This document shows positions 3,522 to 15,638 of a stretch of 15,638 bases of DNA, one piece after another (the stretch's first letter is position 1; every line of letters starts with the position of its first letter). Made by a program: the position numbers and the translations under genes. A model generated the notes under the pieces. It was given only the letters and a program-made list of their open reading frames with translations. It was not told the DNA's origin and did no database searches. Source of the stretch: DAOVGU01 sp030637775 [NCBI: bacterium] (GTDB lineage Bacteria > Ratteibacteria > UBA8468); contig DAOWFY010000158.1 of assembly GCA_030637775.1 (NCBI GenBank), positions 1-15,638 of the forward strand. The letters run 5' to 3'.

Positions 3522-5282
3522 ATGGCTTTTATTTCAGAAAGAATTTTAGAAGAGGTTAGAGAGGCAAATGATATTGTTGAGGTAATTTCTTCTCATCTTC
3601 CCCTGAAAAAGAGCGGCAAGAATTATAAGAGTCTCTGTCCCTTTCATTCAGAGAAGACCGCCTCCTTTATCGTTAACCCCGAGAAGCAAATCTTCCACTG
3701 CTTTGGCTGCTCGGCCGGCGGGAATATCTTTACCTTTGTGATGAAGATGGAAAATCTTACATTTCCTGAGAGCGTGACCTTTTTAGCAGAGAAAGCGGGG
3801 ATAAAACTTGAATGGGAAAAAGGCTCAGAGGAAAAAAAGAATCTTCGCCGCGAGTTGATAAGGGTAAACAATGCCGCCGTCACCTACTTTCATCATAACC
3901 TCACAAGAACAAAAAGAGCAATAGAGTATTTAGCAAGAAGAGGGATTACAGAGAGCTCCATCAAAAGATTTAAATTGGGCTATGCCCAAAAGGCTCCCGA
4001 TGCCCTTAAAAAAGGATTAAAGGTGCAAGGATTCTCTGAAGAGCTTCTCCTAAAAGCAGGGCTTCTTCGCTTATCGGAGGAGAAGGATTTTTATTATGAC
4101 TACTTTCGCGATCGGATTATCTTTCCTATCCAAAATACTGCCGGAGAATGTCTTGCTTTTGGGGGCCGGGTATTGGATGAATCGGTAATGCCCAAATACC
4201 TTAATTCTCCTGAAAGTCCCATCTATCATAAAGGCCGGGTCCTTTATGGTCTTTCTTTAGCTAAAGAGACGATTAGCAAGAAAAAAAGGGCAATTATCGT
4301 AGAAGGTTATTTAGATCTTATCAAAACCTCCCAGGGGGGAATAGAAAACATTGTCGCCCCTTTAGGAACTGCTTTGACGATCGAGCATATTCGGCTCCTT
4401 AAACGGTATACGGAAAATGTTGTTCTTTCCCCGGATAGTGATGAAGCCGGCCACATCTCTGCTTGCCGCAGTCTTGAACTTCTCTTAGAGGAGGGGTTAA
4501 GGACAAAGGTCGTCTTTCTTCCCGAAGGTTATGACCCTGATCGCTATATCACAGAGAAAGGAGCGGAGAACTTCCAGACTTTAATCGACAAGGCGCCAGA
4601 CCCTTTTGATTATAAAATGAGGCTTCTTTCTCTAAAAGTAGATGCGACGAGCATTGAAGGAAAGCTTATCATTGCGGAAGAGCTCCTTGCTCTTGTTGCA
4701 AAATTGGACAATACCATCGAAAGATCAGAGTATCTAAAGAGACTTGCAGAAAGAATGAATCTTGATGAAGAGGACCTGAAGAGTGAGTTAAAGAAGATTT
4801 TGGCCGGGAGGACCCACTCTTTGAAATCGCTTACCGTAGAGGGTAGAGGGAGTTTAGTTCGGGCGCAGGAAATTCTCATCCGCTTCAGTTTAGAAAAAAG
4901 GGAAGCACTGGAAAAGACACTCAGTTTGATTTCTCCTACCGATTTTACGGGAATCTATCAAAAGATCTTTGATAAGATTCTCTGGCTTTCCCGCAAGGAT
5001 GAGAAAATTGCTCCTTCGGAGTTAATCAGTAGTTTAGGAGATGATTTAGAAGCGGGGGAGGTAATCTCCTCTATCCTTTTGGAATCCGCCACTGAACCGA
5101 TGGCGGAAGGTATGAAGGAAAAGATGATCGAGGATTGTGTGAGGAGGATTAGAAAGGAAAGGATTGAGAAAAGATTAGAGTCGCTGAAAGATCTCATCAA
5201 GGAGGCTGAGAGCCGCGGGGAGCTCGATGCCAGACTCTTAGCGGAGTATCAGCATTTCTCCAAGCTAAAAAACAGGAAATGA
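3522..5282 (+). CDS. dnaG: DNA primase DnaG
   Basis: 586 residues, normal for the replicative primase that lays down RNA primers at the fork. The N-terminal CHC2 zinc-binding domain has ligands C39, H42, C60 and C63 (CPFH ... CFGC). The Toprim catalytic core follows, with E261 in VEGYLDLIK and D305/D307 in LSPDSDEAG, then DPDRYI. The C-terminal ~150 residues are helical and charged, fitting the DnaB helicase-binding domain. ATG 3522 gives the canonical start (MAFISERILEEV). dnaG followed by rpoD is the classical macromolecular-synthesis operon order, but here the two are separated by a large structured element starting directly after the stop. Confidence 0.96.
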   Translation: MAFISERILEEVREANDIVEVISSHLPLKKSGKNYKSLCPFHSEKTASFIVNPEKQIFHCFGCSAGGNIFTFVMKMENLTFPESVTFLAEKAGIKLEWEKGSEEKKNLRRELIRVNNAAVTYFHHNLTRTKRAIEYLARRGITESSIKRFKLGYAQKAPDALKKGLKVQGFSEELLLKAGLLRLSEEKDFYYDYFRDRIIFPIQNTAGECLAFGGRVLDESVMPKYLNSPESPIYHKGRVLYGLSLAKETISKKKRAIIVEGYLDLIKTSQGGIENIVAPLGTALTIEHIRLLKRYTENVVLSPDSDEAGHISACRSLELLLEEGLRTKVVFLPEGYDPDRYITEKGAENFQTLIDKAPDPFDYKMRLLSLKVDATSIEGKLIIAEELLALVAKLDNTIERSEYLKRLAERMNLDEEDLKSELKKILAGRTHSLKSLTVEGRGSLVRAQEILIRFSLEKREALEKTLSLISPTDFTGIYQKIFDKILWLSRKDEKIAPSELISSLGDDLEAGEVISSILLESATEPMAEGMKEKMIEDCVRRIRKERIEKRLESLKDLIKEAESRGELDARLLAEYQHFSKLKNRK

Positions 5283-5284
5283 AG

Positions 5285-5637
5285 AGGCTCGGAAAGTTTC
5301 TTCGGCGGCACGTTTGTCAGCCCCAGCGAGGCTGACTGCACTCTCGTTGCTCCTCACTCGTCCTCTTTCGAGGACACCGTGCCCGCTCGTCGCTAACAAG
5401 GCCGCTACAGAAACTTTCTTCGCCTTGTGTATACACTAATGTGAGGTGGTTTTCGTAGAGGGCATTAGACCCCGTATGAATGCCAGAGCAGAGGAGGAGT
5501 CCATAGCGAGCATCTCTGCGAGCGAATGCTGTGCGACGAGTAAGGAGCACGAGATAGCTATTATAGTGCGAGTCGGTGAGTACCCTGACCGACGAAGCGA
5601 TAGCTGAGGAGAACCCTCGAGAAAACGCACCGAACAT
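5285..5637 (+). promoter_or_regulatory. Structured two-domain leader element, copy A (rpoD leader)
   Basis: This 353-base block fills the dnaG-rpoD gap. Domain 1: an 11-bp stem 5291-5301/5409-5419 (one G-U pair) encloses hairpin 5316-5322/5330-5336 (loop CCAGCGA), hairpin 5360-5365/5370-5375, and GGCACG 5307-5312 with CGTGCC 5378-5383. A palindrome GTGTATACAC (5427-5436) links to domain 2. There, segments 5439-5442/5634-5637, 5445-5448/5628-5631, 5449-5454/5621-5626 and 5458-5462/5614-5618 form one long stem interrupted by GA/GA, a bulged G and GUA/GA. It encloses hairpins 5461-5466/5479-5484, 5509-5513/5526-5530, 5531-5534/5547-5550 and a nested 5556-5561/5600-5605 with 5572-5577/5588-5593. 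Copy B upstream of lpxB keeps the architecture with compensatory changes. The rpoD ATG follows three bases after the last stem base, without a Shine-Dalgarno site. It is not a known family to me. Confidence 0.75.
5476..5607 (+). other. Possible short ORF inside the leader element (43 codons)
   Basis: ATG 5476 opens MNARAEEESIASISAS and stops at TGA 5605-5607, in the same frame as rpoD and 11 sense codons before its ATG. In copy B the same ORF begins at 13968 (- strand), reads MNARAEEESIASITAS and runs in frame into lpxB. Over these 16 codons the differences are two synonymous changes and one Ser/Thr change. No ribosome binding site precedes either copy. It may be a real upstream ORF or simply a by-product of RNA conservation. 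Confidence 0.3.
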
Positions 5638-5640
5638 ACT

Positions 5641-6792
5641 ATGAAGAAAAGCACAAAGAAGAAGGATAGGATTGAGGCCTTAATTAAAAAGGGAAAGGAG
5701 AAGAGATTTCTCTCCTACGCGGAGGTTGACGAGGCCCTACCTCGGGATGTGGTTGATCCGGAAGAGATTGAAGACCTCTTCCAGCGACTGGATAACCTTG
5801 ATATTGCTGTGGAAGAGCCGATATCTTTAAAGGATCATTATGAAGCTGAGGAGGAGAGAAGAATCCTTGCCGAGGAGATAAGGAATCCTCTTCGCGCTTA
5901 CCTTAAAGAGATAGGGGTGACTTCCCTTTTGACGCCAACTGAGGAGGTCGATTTAGCAAGACGAATCGATGAAGCAAGGAAGAAACTTCGAGAAGCAATT
6001 AGAAAAAAGAGCTCCGCTAAAACGCTTCGCAAGAGGGTATGGGAATTAGAAAGATTAAAGGGTCATCTCATCAGAGCGAATCTCAGGCTCGTGATCAATA
6101 TTGCCAAGAAATATACCAATCCTAAATTGACCATTCGTGACCTTATTCAGGAAGGCAACATTGGATTGATGAAGGCGGTGGAGAAGTTTAAGTATCGGCA
6201 AGGTTATAAGTTCTCTACCTATGCTACCTGGTGGATTCGTCAGGCCATTACCCGGGCCATTGCCGATCATTCTACGACAATCAGAATTCCCGTACATATG
6301 AGGGAGAAGATCAATAAATTAAATAAAATCCGCACCGGGCTTGTGCAAACCCTGGATCGGGAGCCTACCTTAGAAGAAATGGCCAAAAAGACAAAAGCCC
6401 CCTCTGTTAAAGTAAAGACCATTCTCCGGTCCATGCATCAGGAGCCGGTTTCCTTAGAGATGCCTATTGGCGATGATGGGAAAACCACCTTTGGTGATTT
6501 TGTGGAGGACAAGAACAAGAGCTCTCCCGTAAGTTCTGCTACTAAAGTCATTCTTGCTGAGGAGATTGAGAAGATTTTTTTGGTCCTGGATGAAAGGGAG
6601 AAGGAAATTTTAAGATTGCGGTTTGGTTTAAGGGATAAGAGGTATCAGCGAACCCTGGAGGAGGTAGGAAAATACTTTGATCTTACGCGAGAAAGGATCC
6701 GTCAGATTGAGGCAAAGGCTTTGGAGAAGCTACGTCGCTGCAAAAAGATTAAAAAGTTGAAATCGCTTTTAGGGGAATATTTGAGCAGTTAA
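5641..6792 (+). CDS. rpoD: Primary RNA polymerase sigma factor RpoD (sigma-70/SigA)
   Basis: 383 residues, the short SigA form without the long non-conserved region of the E. coli protein. A short lysine-rich region 1.1 is followed by region 1.2 ([11 protein letters not shown]). Region 2 (about residues 141-210) includes [26 protein letters not shown] and the promoter-melting and -10-reading segment [16 protein letters not shown]. Region 3 starts at [13 protein letters not shown]. The region 4.2 helix-turn-helix ([20 protein letters not shown], from residue 338) reads the -35 box. This agrees with the near-perfect TTGACA/TATAAT promoters elsewhere in the window. The start is fixed by an in-frame TGA at 5605 and no other ATG between. 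The leader element, rather than a Shine-Dalgarno site, abuts the start codon, which suggests expression is controlled through that RNA. Confidence 0.96.
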
Positions 6793-6890
6793 GAGATGAC
6801 TGGACTTTGTTCACTCGGGCTTTCTTATTCCTCGGCACTATCGTGCCTGCGGCATAACCGCCAGCTTCGCTCACAAACCTCAGTCATCTC
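6793..6890 (+). terminator. Branched hairpin element after rpoD
   Basis: Directly after the rpoD stop, GAGATGACTG (6793-6802) pairs perfectly with CAGTCATCTC (6881-6890). The loop contains GGCAC/GTGCC (6834-6838/6843-6847) and GCGG/CCGC (6849-6852/6858-6861). No T-run follows, so it is not a canonical intrinsic terminator. It may stabilise or end the dnaG-rpoD message, or be an intergenic repeat. It lacks tRNA features. Confidence 0.5.
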
Positions 6891-6901
6891 CTGTAATTAT
6901 C

Positions 6902-6907: not shown

Positions 6908-6930
6908 TGCTTTACTATTATCTTTAATGT

Positions 6931-7006
6931 TCTCCCCTTTGGGGAGACACAGAGGGGCGCGAGGAGGTAACAAGGCACGCTTACAGGGAACTTCCTCGCC
7001 TTGGTG
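6931..7006 (+). promoter_or_regulatory. Partial third copy of the leader element (lysC leader)
   Basis: TAACAAGGCACGCTTACAGG at 6968-6987 and the following bases to 7006 match the 3' half of domain 1 of copy B almost base for base. Upstream, at the matching distance, hairpin CTCCCC/GGGGAG (6932-6937/6941-6946, loop TTT) takes the place of hairpin 2 with different but pairing bases. CAAGGC/GCCTTG (6971-6976/6998-7003) is kept, and GCGAGGA/TCCTCGC (6959-6965/6993-6999) is an alternative. The 5' half of domain 1 and all of domain 2 are missing. Confidence 0.55.
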
Positions 7007-7021
7007 GAGAGATAAAGGAAA

Positions 7022-8293
7022 ATGAAAATAGTTGTTCAGAAATATGGGGGCTCTTCTTTAGCAACCGCCGCAAGGATAAAAAATGTTGCTAAAAAAATAG
7101 TTGCCTTTTACAGGAGGAAAAAAGGAGTCTCTCTGGTGATCGTTGTCTCGGCAATGGGGGGGGCTACTGATCGGTTAATCAATCTGGCAAATATGCTGGG
7201 AAAGTCCCCGGAAGGAGGGCTCCCGTCCTGTGGACGGGAATTAGATAGGCTCTTAGCTACCGGGGAGGAGGTATCGAGCAATCTGCTTGCTCTGGCCATT
7301 AGCTCTTTGGGTCTTTCTGCCATCTCCCTTACAGGGGGGGAGGCGGGCATCATCACCAATAGGGCTCATACTAAAGCAAAGATTCTTTCCCTTGATACAG
7401 ACCGAATCAGAAAGGAGCTGAAGAAAGGGAGGATAGTTATTGTCGCCGGATTTCAGGGGATAAGTGATCAGGGAGAAATTACAACGCTTGGTCGGGGAGC
7501 CTCGGATCTTTCGGCGGTTGCTTTAGCCAAGGCCTTAGATGCCGAAAGGTGCGAAATTTTCTCCGATGTTAAGGGGATCTATACCGCCGACCCCTCTGAG
7601 GTGAGAGCCGCCAAAAAGATTTCCCGGATCTCCTATGATGAGGCATTAGGGATGGCGGGATGTGGTGCCCGGGTAATGCAGGGTAGAGCTTTGGAATTAG
7701 CAAAAAAATTCAGGATTCCTCTTTTTGTAGGCTCAAGTTTCTCGAAAGGAGGACTCCCGTCCGGTGGACGGGATGGAAAGGGCACAATCATTACTCCCCC
7801 ACCAAAATTTAGTGGGGGATTTGTAGAGGCGCCTTTAGTCAGTAACGTTGCCCTGAATGAGAAGGAAGCGAAGGTTTCCGTCTTTCGGGTTTTAGATCGG
7901 CCGGGAATTGCGGCCAAGATCTTTGCTCCCATTGCGAGAGCCGGGATTAATGTCGATATGATTGTCCAGAATGTAAGTAAGCAGGGCTATACTGACCTCT
8001 CCTTTACCGTCTCTATTGAGGACTTAGAAAGAACGATGAAGATTGCCAGAAAGATTTCCCGGCAGATTGGCGCCGGAAACGTAGGTTTTGATAAGGATAT
8101 TGCCCGGGTCTCTATCATCGGCCTTGGCATGCAAAGTCATCCTGGGGTAGCAGCAAAAATGTTTTCTGCTTTAGCTAAGCATAGAATTAATATTAAGATG
8201 ATTACCACCTCTGAAATTAAGATTTCCACCGTTGTTCCCAAAAAGGAGGGGAAAAAGGCTTTGAGAGCCGTGCATAAGGAGTTTATAGGATGA
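7022..8293 (+). CDS. lysC: Aspartate kinase LysC
   Basis: 423 residues. It phosphorylates aspartate with ATP, the first step to lysine, threonine, methionine and diaminopimelate. The amino-acid kinase domain shows KYGGSS (residues 4-12), VVSAMGGATD, RELDRLLATGEE and TLGRGASDLSAVALA, then EIFSDVKGIYTADP. Two C-terminal ACT domains begin near VSVFRVLDRPGIAAKIF and VSIIGLGMQSHPGVAAKMF, the usual site of feedback inhibition. Compared with the family I infer small insertions at residues about 64-73 and 242-267, where palindromic repeats sit in frame: one before RELD, two in the linker between kinase and ACT domains. Weak Shine-Dalgarno candidates (AAAGGA 7014-7019, GGAG 7006-7009) precede ATG 7022. 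The stop overlaps the cimA start as ATGA. Confidence 0.95.
   Translation: MKIVVQKYGGSSLATAARIKNVAKKIVAFYRRKKGVSLVIVVSAMGGATDRLINLANMLGKSPEGGLPSCGRELDRLLATGEEVSSNLLALAISSLGLSAISLTGGEAGIITNRAHTKAKILSLDTDRIRKELKKGRIVIVAGFQGISDQGEITTLGRGASDLSAVALAKALDAERCEIFSDVKGIYTADPSEVRAAKKISRISYDEALGMAGCGARVMQGRALELAKKFRIPLFVGSSFSKGGLPSGGRDGKGTIITPPPKFSGGFVEAPLVSNVALNEKEAKVSVFRVLDRPGIAAKIFAPIARAGINVDMIVQNVSKQGYTDLSFTVSIEDLERTMKIARKISRQIGAGNVGFDKDIARVSIIGLGMQSHPGVAAKMFSALAKHRINIKMITTSEIKISTVVPKKEGKKALRAVHKEFIG
7212..7239 (+). repeat. Palindromic repeat inside lysC, copy 1
   Basis: A 28-base unit with an 8-bp hairpin TCCCGTCC/GGACGGGA (7221-7228/7232-7239, loop TGT). It matches copy 2 at 26 of 28 positions and encodes EGGLPSCGRE, just before the kinase motif RELD. 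Confidence 0.8.
7746..7773 (+). repeat. Palindromic repeat inside lysC, copy 2
   Basis: Same unit as 7212-7239, in the same orientation and reading frame. The hairpin is TCCCGTCC/GGACGGGA (7755-7762/7766-7773, loop GGT). It encodes KGGLPSGGRD in the linker between kinase and ACT domains. Confidence 0.8.
7795..7819 (+). repeat. Second type of palindrome inside lysC
   Basis: TCCCCCAC (7795-7802) pairs with GTGGGGGA (7812-7819) around a 9-base AT-rich loop. It lies 21 bases after copy 2 of the other palindrome and encodes PPPKFSGG in the same interdomain linker. Its sequence is unrelated to the 28-base unit. Confidence 0.65.
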
Positions 8294-12766: not shown

Positions 12767-13893
12767 AGCCTCTCTAAAATAATTTTTGCGGCGCGAGCGG
12801 CTGCTCCGGGGCTCCCCAGGGCTCTCTTTACCTCCTTTAATTGGCTGCTTATCTCTTCCCCTTTTTTTCTTTGATTAAGAAGAGCAAGGGCGGTTGGCAG
12901 AATTCCTCGGGCATTTGCCCTTCTCTGGATAAATTCAGGTACTATTTCCTTTTTAGCGATGATGTTGACCATACCGATATAAGGGAGTTTGACTATTCTT
13001 TTAAGAAAAAAATAGGCAAGGGGAGAAACCTTGTAGAGAATAATCATTGGTCGCTCTAAAATCGCAATCTCCACGGTGGCGGTGCCGGAGGCAGTGAGGA
13101 TGAGATCGCTGCTCTTGATGAGCTCGTACTTTCTCTCTTTAGTTACCGGAAGAGAAATTTTCTCCAGTTTTAAGATTTTTTCTATTTCCTTTTCCATTAA
13201 AGAACTGGCGGCTAAAATGGCAAATTGGGTCTCTTTTTTTTCTTTCCTGATTAATCGGGTTAATTTTACCATCACCGGGAGAACTCTTTTAACTTCACAG
13301 GAGCGACTACCGGGGAGAAGGGTTACTAAAGAACATTTCTCCTTCAGGGAGAAATGCTTCATTATCTCTTCCTTGCTCTCGGTTGGTTTCACTACGTCTA
13401 AAAGGGGGTGTCCCACAAAGGAAGTAGACAGTCCCTCCTTTTCGTAGATTGCTTTCTCAAATGGTAAAATAGTAATCATTTTGGTGAAAAGAGAGACGAT
13501 CTTTTTGATACGACCTTTTCCCCAGGCCCAAACCTGGGGGCCGATGTAATAGATAAGGGGTATCGGGAGATCTTTAATTTTTTCTGCTACCCTCAGATTG
13601 AAACCAGGATAGTTGATAAAAATAACCACATCAGGTCGTTCTTCTTTGATTCTAACAATGAGTTGATAAAGGACGCGGCGAAAGAGAAAAATATACCGGG
13701 CCACTTCAACAAATCCGACAAGAGAAAAACGGGTAAGATCAAAGAGAATCTTTATTCCCGCGGCCTTCATCCTTTCTCCTCCCACTCCGAAAATCTGTAA
13801 AAGAGGCTCCTTTTCTAAAAGAGATTTTGCCAAGAGAGCGCCATGAAGGTCTCCCGAGATATCCCCGGTAATAATGAATATTTTGGCCATCAT
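12763..13893 (-). CDS. lpxB: Lipid-A-disaccharide synthase LpxB
   Basis: 376 residues from the ATG at 13893, matching the ~380 of the family. LpxB (GT19) joins UDP-2,3-diacylglucosamine to lipid X, making the lipid A disaccharide at the inner membrane. Family signatures seen: TGDISGDLHG at the start, FGVGGERM, INYPGFNLR, YYIGPQVWAWGKGRIKKI, ILPFEKAIYEKEG, FVGHPLLD, LLPGSRSCEVKR and ASGTATVE. The frame is open upstream to an ATG at 13968, adding 25 residues (MNARAEEESIAS...) encoded by the leader element; MMAKIF at 13893 (or MAKIF at 13890) is the family start. No Shine-Dalgarno site is seen; the leader stem ends directly at this ATG. The gene overlaps msbA by four bases. Confidence 0.93.
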   Translation of the reverse strand: MMAKIFIITGDISGDLHGALLAKSLLEKEPLLQIFGVGGERMKAAGIKILFDLTRFSLVGFVEVARYIFLFRRVLYQLIVRIKEERPDVVIFINYPGFNLRVAEKIKDLPIPLIYYIGPQVWAWGKGRIKKIVSLFTKMITILPFEKAIYEKEGLSTSFVGHPLLDVVKPTESKEEIMKHFSLKEKCSLVTLLPGSRSCEVKRVLPVMVKLTRLIRKEKKETQFAILAASSLMEKEIEKILKLEKISLPVTKERKYELIKSSDLILTASGTATVEIAILERPMIILYKVSPLAYFFLKRIVKLPYIGMVNIIAKKEIVPEFIQRRANARGILPTALALLNQRKKGEEISSQLKEVKRALGSPGAAARAAKIILERL

Positions 13894-14162
13894 ATACTCG
13901 GAGTACTTTCTCGATGGCACGCTCGCAGTAATGCTCGCTATGGACTCCTCCTCTGCTCGGGCATTCATACGGGGTCTAATGCCATCTACGAAAGTCTCCT
14001 CGTATCGGTTTAAACACCAAAGCGAGGAAGTTTCCTGAAGCGTGCCTTGTTAGCGACGAACGGGCACGGTGTCCGCCAAAGGCGGACGAGTGAGGAGCAA
14101 CGAGAGTGCAGATTCCCTCGCTGGGGGAATCAAACGTGCCGCTGAAGGAAACCTCCGAGCCT
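13894..14162 (-). promoter_or_regulatory. Structured two-domain leader element, copy B (lpxB leader)
   Basis: Homologue of the rpoD leader, read on the - strand. Domain 1: 11-bp outer stem 14156-14146/14036-14026 with one G-U pair; hairpin 1 14131-14125/14117-14111 with loop CCAGCGA; hairpin 2 14087-14081/14077-14071 with loop TTT; GGCACG/CGTGCC 14140-14135/14068-14063. The palindromic linker GTTTAAAC is at 14008-14015. Domain 2: paired segments 14005-14002/13897-13894, 13999-13996/13903-13900, 13995-13990/13910-13905 and 13986-13980/13919-13913, separated by GA/GA, a bulged A and GUA/GA. Inside is the conserved hairpin GGCATT/AATGCC. Copy A's extra hairpins are absent. The last stem base is directly followed by the lpxB ATG. 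The predicted transcription start (14156) is the first stem base. Confidence 0.75.
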
Positions 14163-14192
14163 ATTATACTTCATTTCCCTTATAGTTGACAA
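14163..14192 (-). promoter_or_regulatory. Promoter of lpxB-msbA
   Basis: On the - strand, TTGTCA (14192-14187), an 18-base spacer and TATAAT (14168-14163) predict a transcript starting at about 14156. The -35 box overlaps that of the divergent gyrB promoter. Confidence 0.7.
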
Positions 14193-14214
14193 GGAAAGAT
14201 TAATATTATATAAT
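14186..14214 (+). promoter_or_regulatory. Promoter of gyrB
   Basis: A full-consensus promoter: TTGACA (14186-14191), a 17-base spacer and TATAAT (14209-14214). The expected start is near 14221, giving a leader of about 46 bases that holds the Shine-Dalgarno site AAGGAG (14252-14257). Confidence 0.85.
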
Positions 14215-14233
14215 ATATTTATAGGACATTTAA

Positions 14234-15638
<1,405 letters not shown>

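Follow-up and report, generated by a model that had tools for sequence, protein, structure and literature searches.

Two composites of a structure-conserved, docked palindromic repeat family upstream of rpoD and lpxB in a Ratteibacteria draft genome

Two composites of one interspersed family

We analysed a stretch of 15,638 nucleotides (nt), hereafter the window, from the draft genome of the bacterium DAOVGU01 sp030637775 (GCA_030637775.1, contig DAOWFY010000158.1), in which two similar structured elements stand upstream of rpoD and lpxB. An initial annotation had described them as a duplicated two-domain leader element with covarying stems. Our results indicated, with a probability of roughly 0.75, that they are two composites made of members of a family of non-autonomous, structure-conserved interspersed palindromic elements docked at gene boundaries, and that the rpoD and lpxB copies are leaders only incidentally. 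The elements are probably mobile, and the lineage carrying them is of the Ratteibacteria/Omnitrophota type.

Both copies were real: one lies at 5285-5637 before rpoD and the other at about 13895-14162 (minus strand) before lpxB, and inverted pairs of 115 nt (83%), 87 nt (82%) and 38 nt (92%) connect 5282-5524 with 13920-14165. Their stems changed in matched pairs, hairpin 1 being GTCAGCC/GGCTGAC before rpoD and GATTCCC/GGGAATC before lpxB, around an identical loop CCAGCGA. The two domains also stood, but the second is inverted relative to the first, and the two copies use different family members for it, namely type B before lpxB and a longer B/C form before rpoD. Each domain of both composites is an independent member of the family. 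At the rpoD site, a type A element (5285..5427, +, R end at 5427) is followed tail-to-tail by an inverted long B/C-type element (5437..5637, -, with the R end from 5437 and the L end near 5637), and the palindrome GTGTATACAC (5427..5436) joins the two R ends; the C module of the latter (5508..5637, -) occurs elsewhere in the genome too. At the lpxB site, a type A element (14018..14162, -) is followed by a type B element (13895..14008, +) that is inverted relative to lpxB and to its A element. Members of the family have their left (L) and right (R) ends in common, paired imperfectly as a terminal stem (terminal inverted repeats), while their cores differ. The exchangeable cores are A, B, B/C and a further one found in G001, a genome of the same genus; G002 and G003, also used below, belong to the same family. 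Type A is ~145 nt long and the elements range from about 100 to 270 nt.

The duplication was not confined to a pair: the family to which both copies belong occupies about 50 places. Many copies in random orientation and position had been named in the initial annotation as an outcome that would refute its reading; about 50 separate places, fragments included, were counted by hand in the examined stretches (136514 bases) of the 1.40-Mb genome, all copy numbers being lower bounds. With the whole stretch as query, this genome yielded 58 matches (the best 40 of 58 were scored), and searches with parts gave 19 matches for C, 22 for B and 43 for the second A copy (the best 40 of 41 being scored in this last search). 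Several of the places lie at contig ends, which is typical for repeats in draft assemblies. A scan of the same stretches for the tail-to-tail R-R motif yielded nine matches, five of which were judged real, including both window sites; many family copies are single and not in inverted doublets. Of the 110 matches of a de novo scan, 44 were accepted as genuine elements. The statement that no Rfam family is recognisable was borne out: the window and 12 related loci had no match at gathering score, and a search of region 5200-5700 down to E 10 returned only three sub-threshold long non-coding RNA matches (E 1.2-8.4). A covarying "leader" pair seen within one window may thus be a dispersed repeat.

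Conservation of the fold

Type A consists of a terminal stem, hairpin 1 with the loop CCAGCGA, and a helix P3 around hairpin 2. In the rpoD-site copy, hairpin 1 (5316..5336, +) has a covarying 7-bp stem (5316-5322 with 5330-5336), and P3 (5345..5397, +) pairs 5346-5350 with 5392-5397, in a register read from the letters, surrounding hairpin 2 (5360..5375, +), whose stem length and sequence vary among copies. The folds were more stable than those of dinucleotide shuffles (z -3.9, 0/100; z -4.5, 0/200). The covarying stems described initially were upheld, as covariation and swap tests both exceeded shuffled or permuted controls. In the swap tests, duplex energy within copies was compared with that between swapped copies, with 300 permutations for the A helices. 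From 50 family copies 48 were used, and from 26 copies of other metagenome-assembled genomes (MAGs) 25, 24 or 16, the excluded copies being truncated at ends, containing N or having an overlong hairpin-2 region. None of the 300 permutations reached the observed mean for any A helix in either set. In the family set, the terminal stem gave -30.1 within and -24.0 swapped, hairpin 2 gave -11.4 and -5.9, and P3 gave -6.3 and -5.5; in the other MAGs the corresponding values were -42.7 and -22.4 (24 copies), -20.8 and -9.9 (16 copies), and -10.0 and -8.1 (24 copies). Hairpin 1 showed -7.6 within and -1.3 swapped in the family set and -11.7 and -4.8 in 25 copies of other MAGs, a result that is biased because the scanner itself required a stem.

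Free of this bias are a pair count over 26 hand-chosen A copies and a hairpin-1 count over 78 matches (see below). For 17 named pairs, taken from hairpin 1, the outer part of hairpin 2 and the terminal-stem base but not from P3, 97.5% of 435 cells were paired in the 26 copies against a shuffled mean of 86.3%, and eight of the 17 pairs had changed on both sides. The covariation score was 0.339 compared with a shuffled mean of 0.146, and slid controls gave at most 0.086. One measure, further pair types, was no higher in these copies than in the shuffles (368/500). In the elements of the de novo scan, a mean of 3.30 of the four pairs at the stem base formed within copies versus 2.16 after swapping.

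The core helix of type B, which pairs 5468-5473 with 5496-5501 at the rpoD site (5462..5501, -), occurs in such forms as GGCAAC/GTTGCC, GGCGAC/GTCGCC, GACTCC/GGGGTC and others, and covaried over 22 distinct cores (mean -10.2 within versus -4.5 swapped, 0/1000). A near-invariant pairing, GGCATT/AATGCC, would cross this helix, so a pseudoknot or kissing loops in type B are possible. Two further candidates were dropped: a GGCACG/CGTGCC pseudoknot in type A, whose pairing is broken by CATGCC variants and whose GGCACG is missing from copies of other lineages, and a TC/TC internal loop considered as conserved at the foot of the terminal stem, since some copies have other letters there and the de novo scan had itself required this loop. 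As to the strand, P3 was stronger when read R-to-L in 44 of 48 family copies and 17 of 24 copies elsewhere, and so was hairpin 2 in 24/48 and 14/16; the terminal stem preferred neither strand, and the B helix was stronger on the L-to-R strand (19/22).

Docking at gene boundaries

The docking scan covered the family loci of the own genome and G001-G003 with an L-end motif, which misses certain variants of that end, such as the one in the B copy of lpxB, and gave 101 matches. In 37 of them the L end follows the stop codon of an open frame (class S), 36 at 2-7 nt with a mode of 6 and one at 18. In another 26 the L end faces a start codon (class T), 22 at exactly 7 nt and the others at 4, 8, 56 and 56; the 22 are not all independent, because the same gene was met in two species. 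The remaining 38 were neither S nor T, some of them apparently false or cut by locus ends. One copy begins 1 nt after a tRNA-Gln gene. R ends were undocked in the own stretches: the next start codon was 8-62 nt away in 8 of 20 cases, and none was found within 120 nt in the other 12. Pfam scanning of 17 T-class neighbours and rpoD, with gene names being our reading of the matches, identified dprA, ribosomal protein L6, hypA, gcvPA, ligA, nusB, lpxA, an AAA ATPase, cobU, T2SSF, T2SSE, an EPSP-synthase family gene (murA-like), Ham1, nusG, an ABC ATPase, mlaD and ftsZ. These genes are mutually unrelated.

The window itself holds both classes. Region 5282-5640 separates dnaG (3522-5282, supported by Pfam) from rpoD (5641-6792), whose product has five Sigma70 Pfam domains. 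The A element here is of class S, its L-end TCGG (5289) starting 6 nt past the dnaG stop codon TGA (5280-5282), and the B/C element is of class T, with 7 nt between CCGA (5630-5633) and the rpoD ATG (5641). The other downstream gene encodes LpxB according to the Pfam scan. The L end of its A element comes immediately after a -10-like box (TTGTCA-18-TATAAT, 14192-14163, minus strand), and the L end of its B element is just upstream of the lpxB start, where 13888-13901 read CCGAGTATATGATG on the minus strand. As a separate observation, 14163-14214 carries a divergent promoter-like pair, TTGACA-17-TATAAT on the plus strand (12/12) and TTGTCA-18-TATAAT on the minus strand (11/12); four promoter-like sites were found in the region compared with 1.0 in shuffles.

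Comparison with relatives and occurrence elsewhere

The dnaG-rpoD junction differed among relatives. In G002 it is 6 nt long and has no element; in G001 it holds another core and a leftover CCGAGTATATT before the ATG; and no element was seen in the 184 nt examined upstream of rpoD in G003. Upstream of lpxB, none was found in 500 nt of G003 or in 72 nt of G001. We counted by hand 16 comparisons of sites whose two flanks were collinear on a single locus of a relative, counting copies of one relative genome once. Six relative sites were empty, six had the same core type and four had another core or composite, proportions that are biased because most relative loci had been chosen for containing elements. 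The empty sites were rpoD in G002, C134:1306, C175:3834 and C170 in G001, and C14 in both G002 and G003, while other cores or composites occurred at rpoD, C85 and C47 in G001 and at C170 in G002. Where only one flank was matched, C144 has B in the own genome and A at the G003 site, C129 has A in both with different helices, and G003 has no element at C119. The lpxB site in G001 was excluded from the 16 because its flanks are oppositely oriented: in G001 locus L149, compared with window 13385-14665, they stand in opposite orientation with family elements between them, and a repeat-mediated inversion is possible there.

Among 61 genomes, the type A query matched five and the B/C part eight, with at most 14 (type A) and 13 (B/C) candidates scored per genome; the matched genomes were the own one, one of the same genus, two of the same family and a weak remainder. 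A pattern scan of a named genome collection, whose pattern did not require pairing, gave 78 matches on 77 stretches. Taken as deposited, the labels of these MAGs include Omnitrophota/Omnitrophica, Ratteibacteria, Aminicenantes, Yanofskybacteria, Deltaproteobacteria and Verrucomicrobia, among others. All four free pairs of hairpin 1 were Watson-Crick in 67 of the 78, three in six, and two or fewer in five, which look like chance matches. Viral contigs had no match. Elements from genomes outside the family were intergenic in 23 of 24 cases. In four loci from CG22 and Lake Pavin Omnitrophota MAGs (L164, L173, L190 and L206), the hairpin-2 region is enlarged by a structured-looking stretch of more than 100 nt.

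Other repeats in the window

A detached right end of an A element lies between rpoD and lysC (6968..7003, +). The same interval contains a stem-rich palindrome immediately after rpoD (6784-6900, GAGATGACTG...CAGTCATCTC) and a member of a hairpin family (6928-6960, TGTTCTCCCC...GGGGAGACACAGAGGGG) that had eight matches in the examined stretches of the own genome, several of them within or adjoining the elements. In lysC, a 31-nt palindromic piece occurs twice in frame (90%; 7209-7239 and 7743-7773) and looks like a palindromic element within a protein gene; at the first place it is absent in G001, and a similar insert is present in G002. An inverted repeat at 2394-2503 (AAAAATAGGGACACATCC...), presumably REP-like, stands between two genes that we take to resemble mgtE and tilS.

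Mobility and rival explanations

We propose that copies of the family may spread as folded single-stranded DNA or RNA, either enzymatically or through gene conversion. We infer movement because sites are empty or re-occupied in relatives. Insertions would survive because the docked position spares the neighbouring stop codon, start codon, promoter or tRNA. Within a transcript a copy would act as a folded spacer, and processing, stability or translation may change as a side effect; the window composites would be such spacers, about 270 and 350 nt long, with possible effects on the transcript, and the rpoD and lpxB copies would be incidental leaders rather than switches evolved for these genes. 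Several points weigh against this explanation. The differences between sites could also arise from gene conversion or from the loss of copies present in an ancestor, and visual inspection of the comparisons with relatives revealed no recognisable target-site duplication. Profile searches (PF01797, PF00078, PF07282) found no mobilising enzyme: reverse transcriptase was unmatched in four of four family genomes, and a TnpB-type domain was present in one of the four, the own genome not being that one. The exact 7-nt spacing to the start codon is tighter than would be expected if insertions were simply tolerated and could reflect a function, and at least four T-class genes (dprA, hypA, gcvPA and a pilT-like gene) recur in two species. 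RNA and single-stranded DNA as the selected form are also indistinguishable because the strand tests conflict. A repeat conserved more in fold than in sequence, with exchanged cores and one end at a fixed distance from start codons, would connect small palindromic repeats with a targeting mechanism. It would also illustrate how dozens of insertions at gene junctions are tolerated by a bacterium whose genome is small.

The initial annotation placed both copies correctly, directly upstream of genes, but a dedicated cis-regulatory RNA leader common to rpoD and lpxB, whether riboswitch-like or protein-binding, is very unlikely in our opinion. It would account for folds better than shuffles and for covarying stems, and the lpxB copy, which starts at a promoter-like site, would then be a 5' leader. 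However, there are about 50 places in the genome, many copies sit after stop codons, the neighbouring genes are unrelated, rpoD has no element in G002 and another core in G001, and Rfam gave no family at gathering score and the three sub-threshold matches only. A host-owned intercistronic element, spread by recombination and kept at operon junctions for mRNA processing, stability or translation start, would explain why the L end stands exactly 7 nt from the ATG in 22 of 26 T cases and 2-7 nt past the stop in 36 of 37 S cases, and it agrees with helices conserved in other lineages. We consider it unlikely, as the same junction differs in presence between species, cores are exchangeable, S and T classes put opposite strands into the transcript, and the stronger strand is opposite for helix P3 of A and the B helix. 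The third possibility is that these are REPIN-type elements, mobilised by the genomes' own Y1 (RAYT-like) transposases. Y1_Tnp matches were present in each of G000 to G003, with two in the own genome, and the inverted doublets, intergenic location and compensatory changes match those reported for REPINs (PMC3116915). Against it, the inverted repeats beside both own Y1 genes begin with GGGGTCAG, unlike L or R; queries with A and with the ends had no match in 10 Y1 loci, and B and C matched there just once each, B over 18 nt in own L239 (E 0.09) and C over 33 nt in G006 L237 (E 2.5e-4); and the units are several times the length of a REP. This explanation appears quite unlikely.

An extension of the proposed mobile family would be a class of boundary-seeking elements, in which one end recognises a gene edge, the core is an exchangeable cassette and the whole moves as folded RNA or single-stranded DNA; we put this forward tentatively and think it rather unlikely. 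The edge would be a start codon at exactly 7 nt, a stop codon, a promoter or a tRNA end, and the recurrence of core loops in MAGs of different phylum labels would fit this doubtful class.

Comparison with known repeat systems

No such repeat family was found among the titles and abstract openings listed for open-licence papers on Omnitrophota, Ratteibacteria, palindromic repeats or structured RNA. BIMEs have many intergenic palindromic copies and inverted doublets. REPINs are likewise reported to show inverted doublets, intergenic palindromic copies and compensatory changes in hairpins (PMC3116915). Our family resembles REP, BIME and REPIN in these respects, and its tail-to-tail R-R pairs present two inverted palindromic units with a spacer. 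However, it differs from them in having units of 100-270 nt, internal helices, exchangeable cores and a fixed start-codon spacing, and its own Y1 genes are flanked by other repeats and not by family ends. ERIC, NEMIS/Correia, RUP, RPE and CIR are described as about 100-200 bp long and mainly intergenic, with highly base-paired transcripts (PMC2229807). Compared with such repeats, which are like miniature inverted-repeat transposable elements (MITE-like), the family is similar in size, mostly intergenic and bounded by terminal inverted repeats, but it has no recognised TA duplication, places several cores in common ends and docks at one end. The MIRU of mycobacteria are described as apparently mobile and as inserting at start codons with a probably minimal impact on genes, and their open reading frame (ORF) is coupled to the gene with a spacing of -4 (PMC12548453). 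Similarly to this description, the family docks at start codons, 22 of 26 T-class cases being at exactly 7 nt. It differs in that stop codons are docking sites as well and that no consistent short ORF was found at the start codon in 23 T-class cases: neither frame nor end was consistent, and a frame with a start codon ending 4 nt into the gene occurred in 3 of the 23. None of the known systems fits every tested feature; by analogy, the family appears REPIN- or BIME-like in form, close to bacterial MITE-like repeats in size and MIRU-like in its docking.
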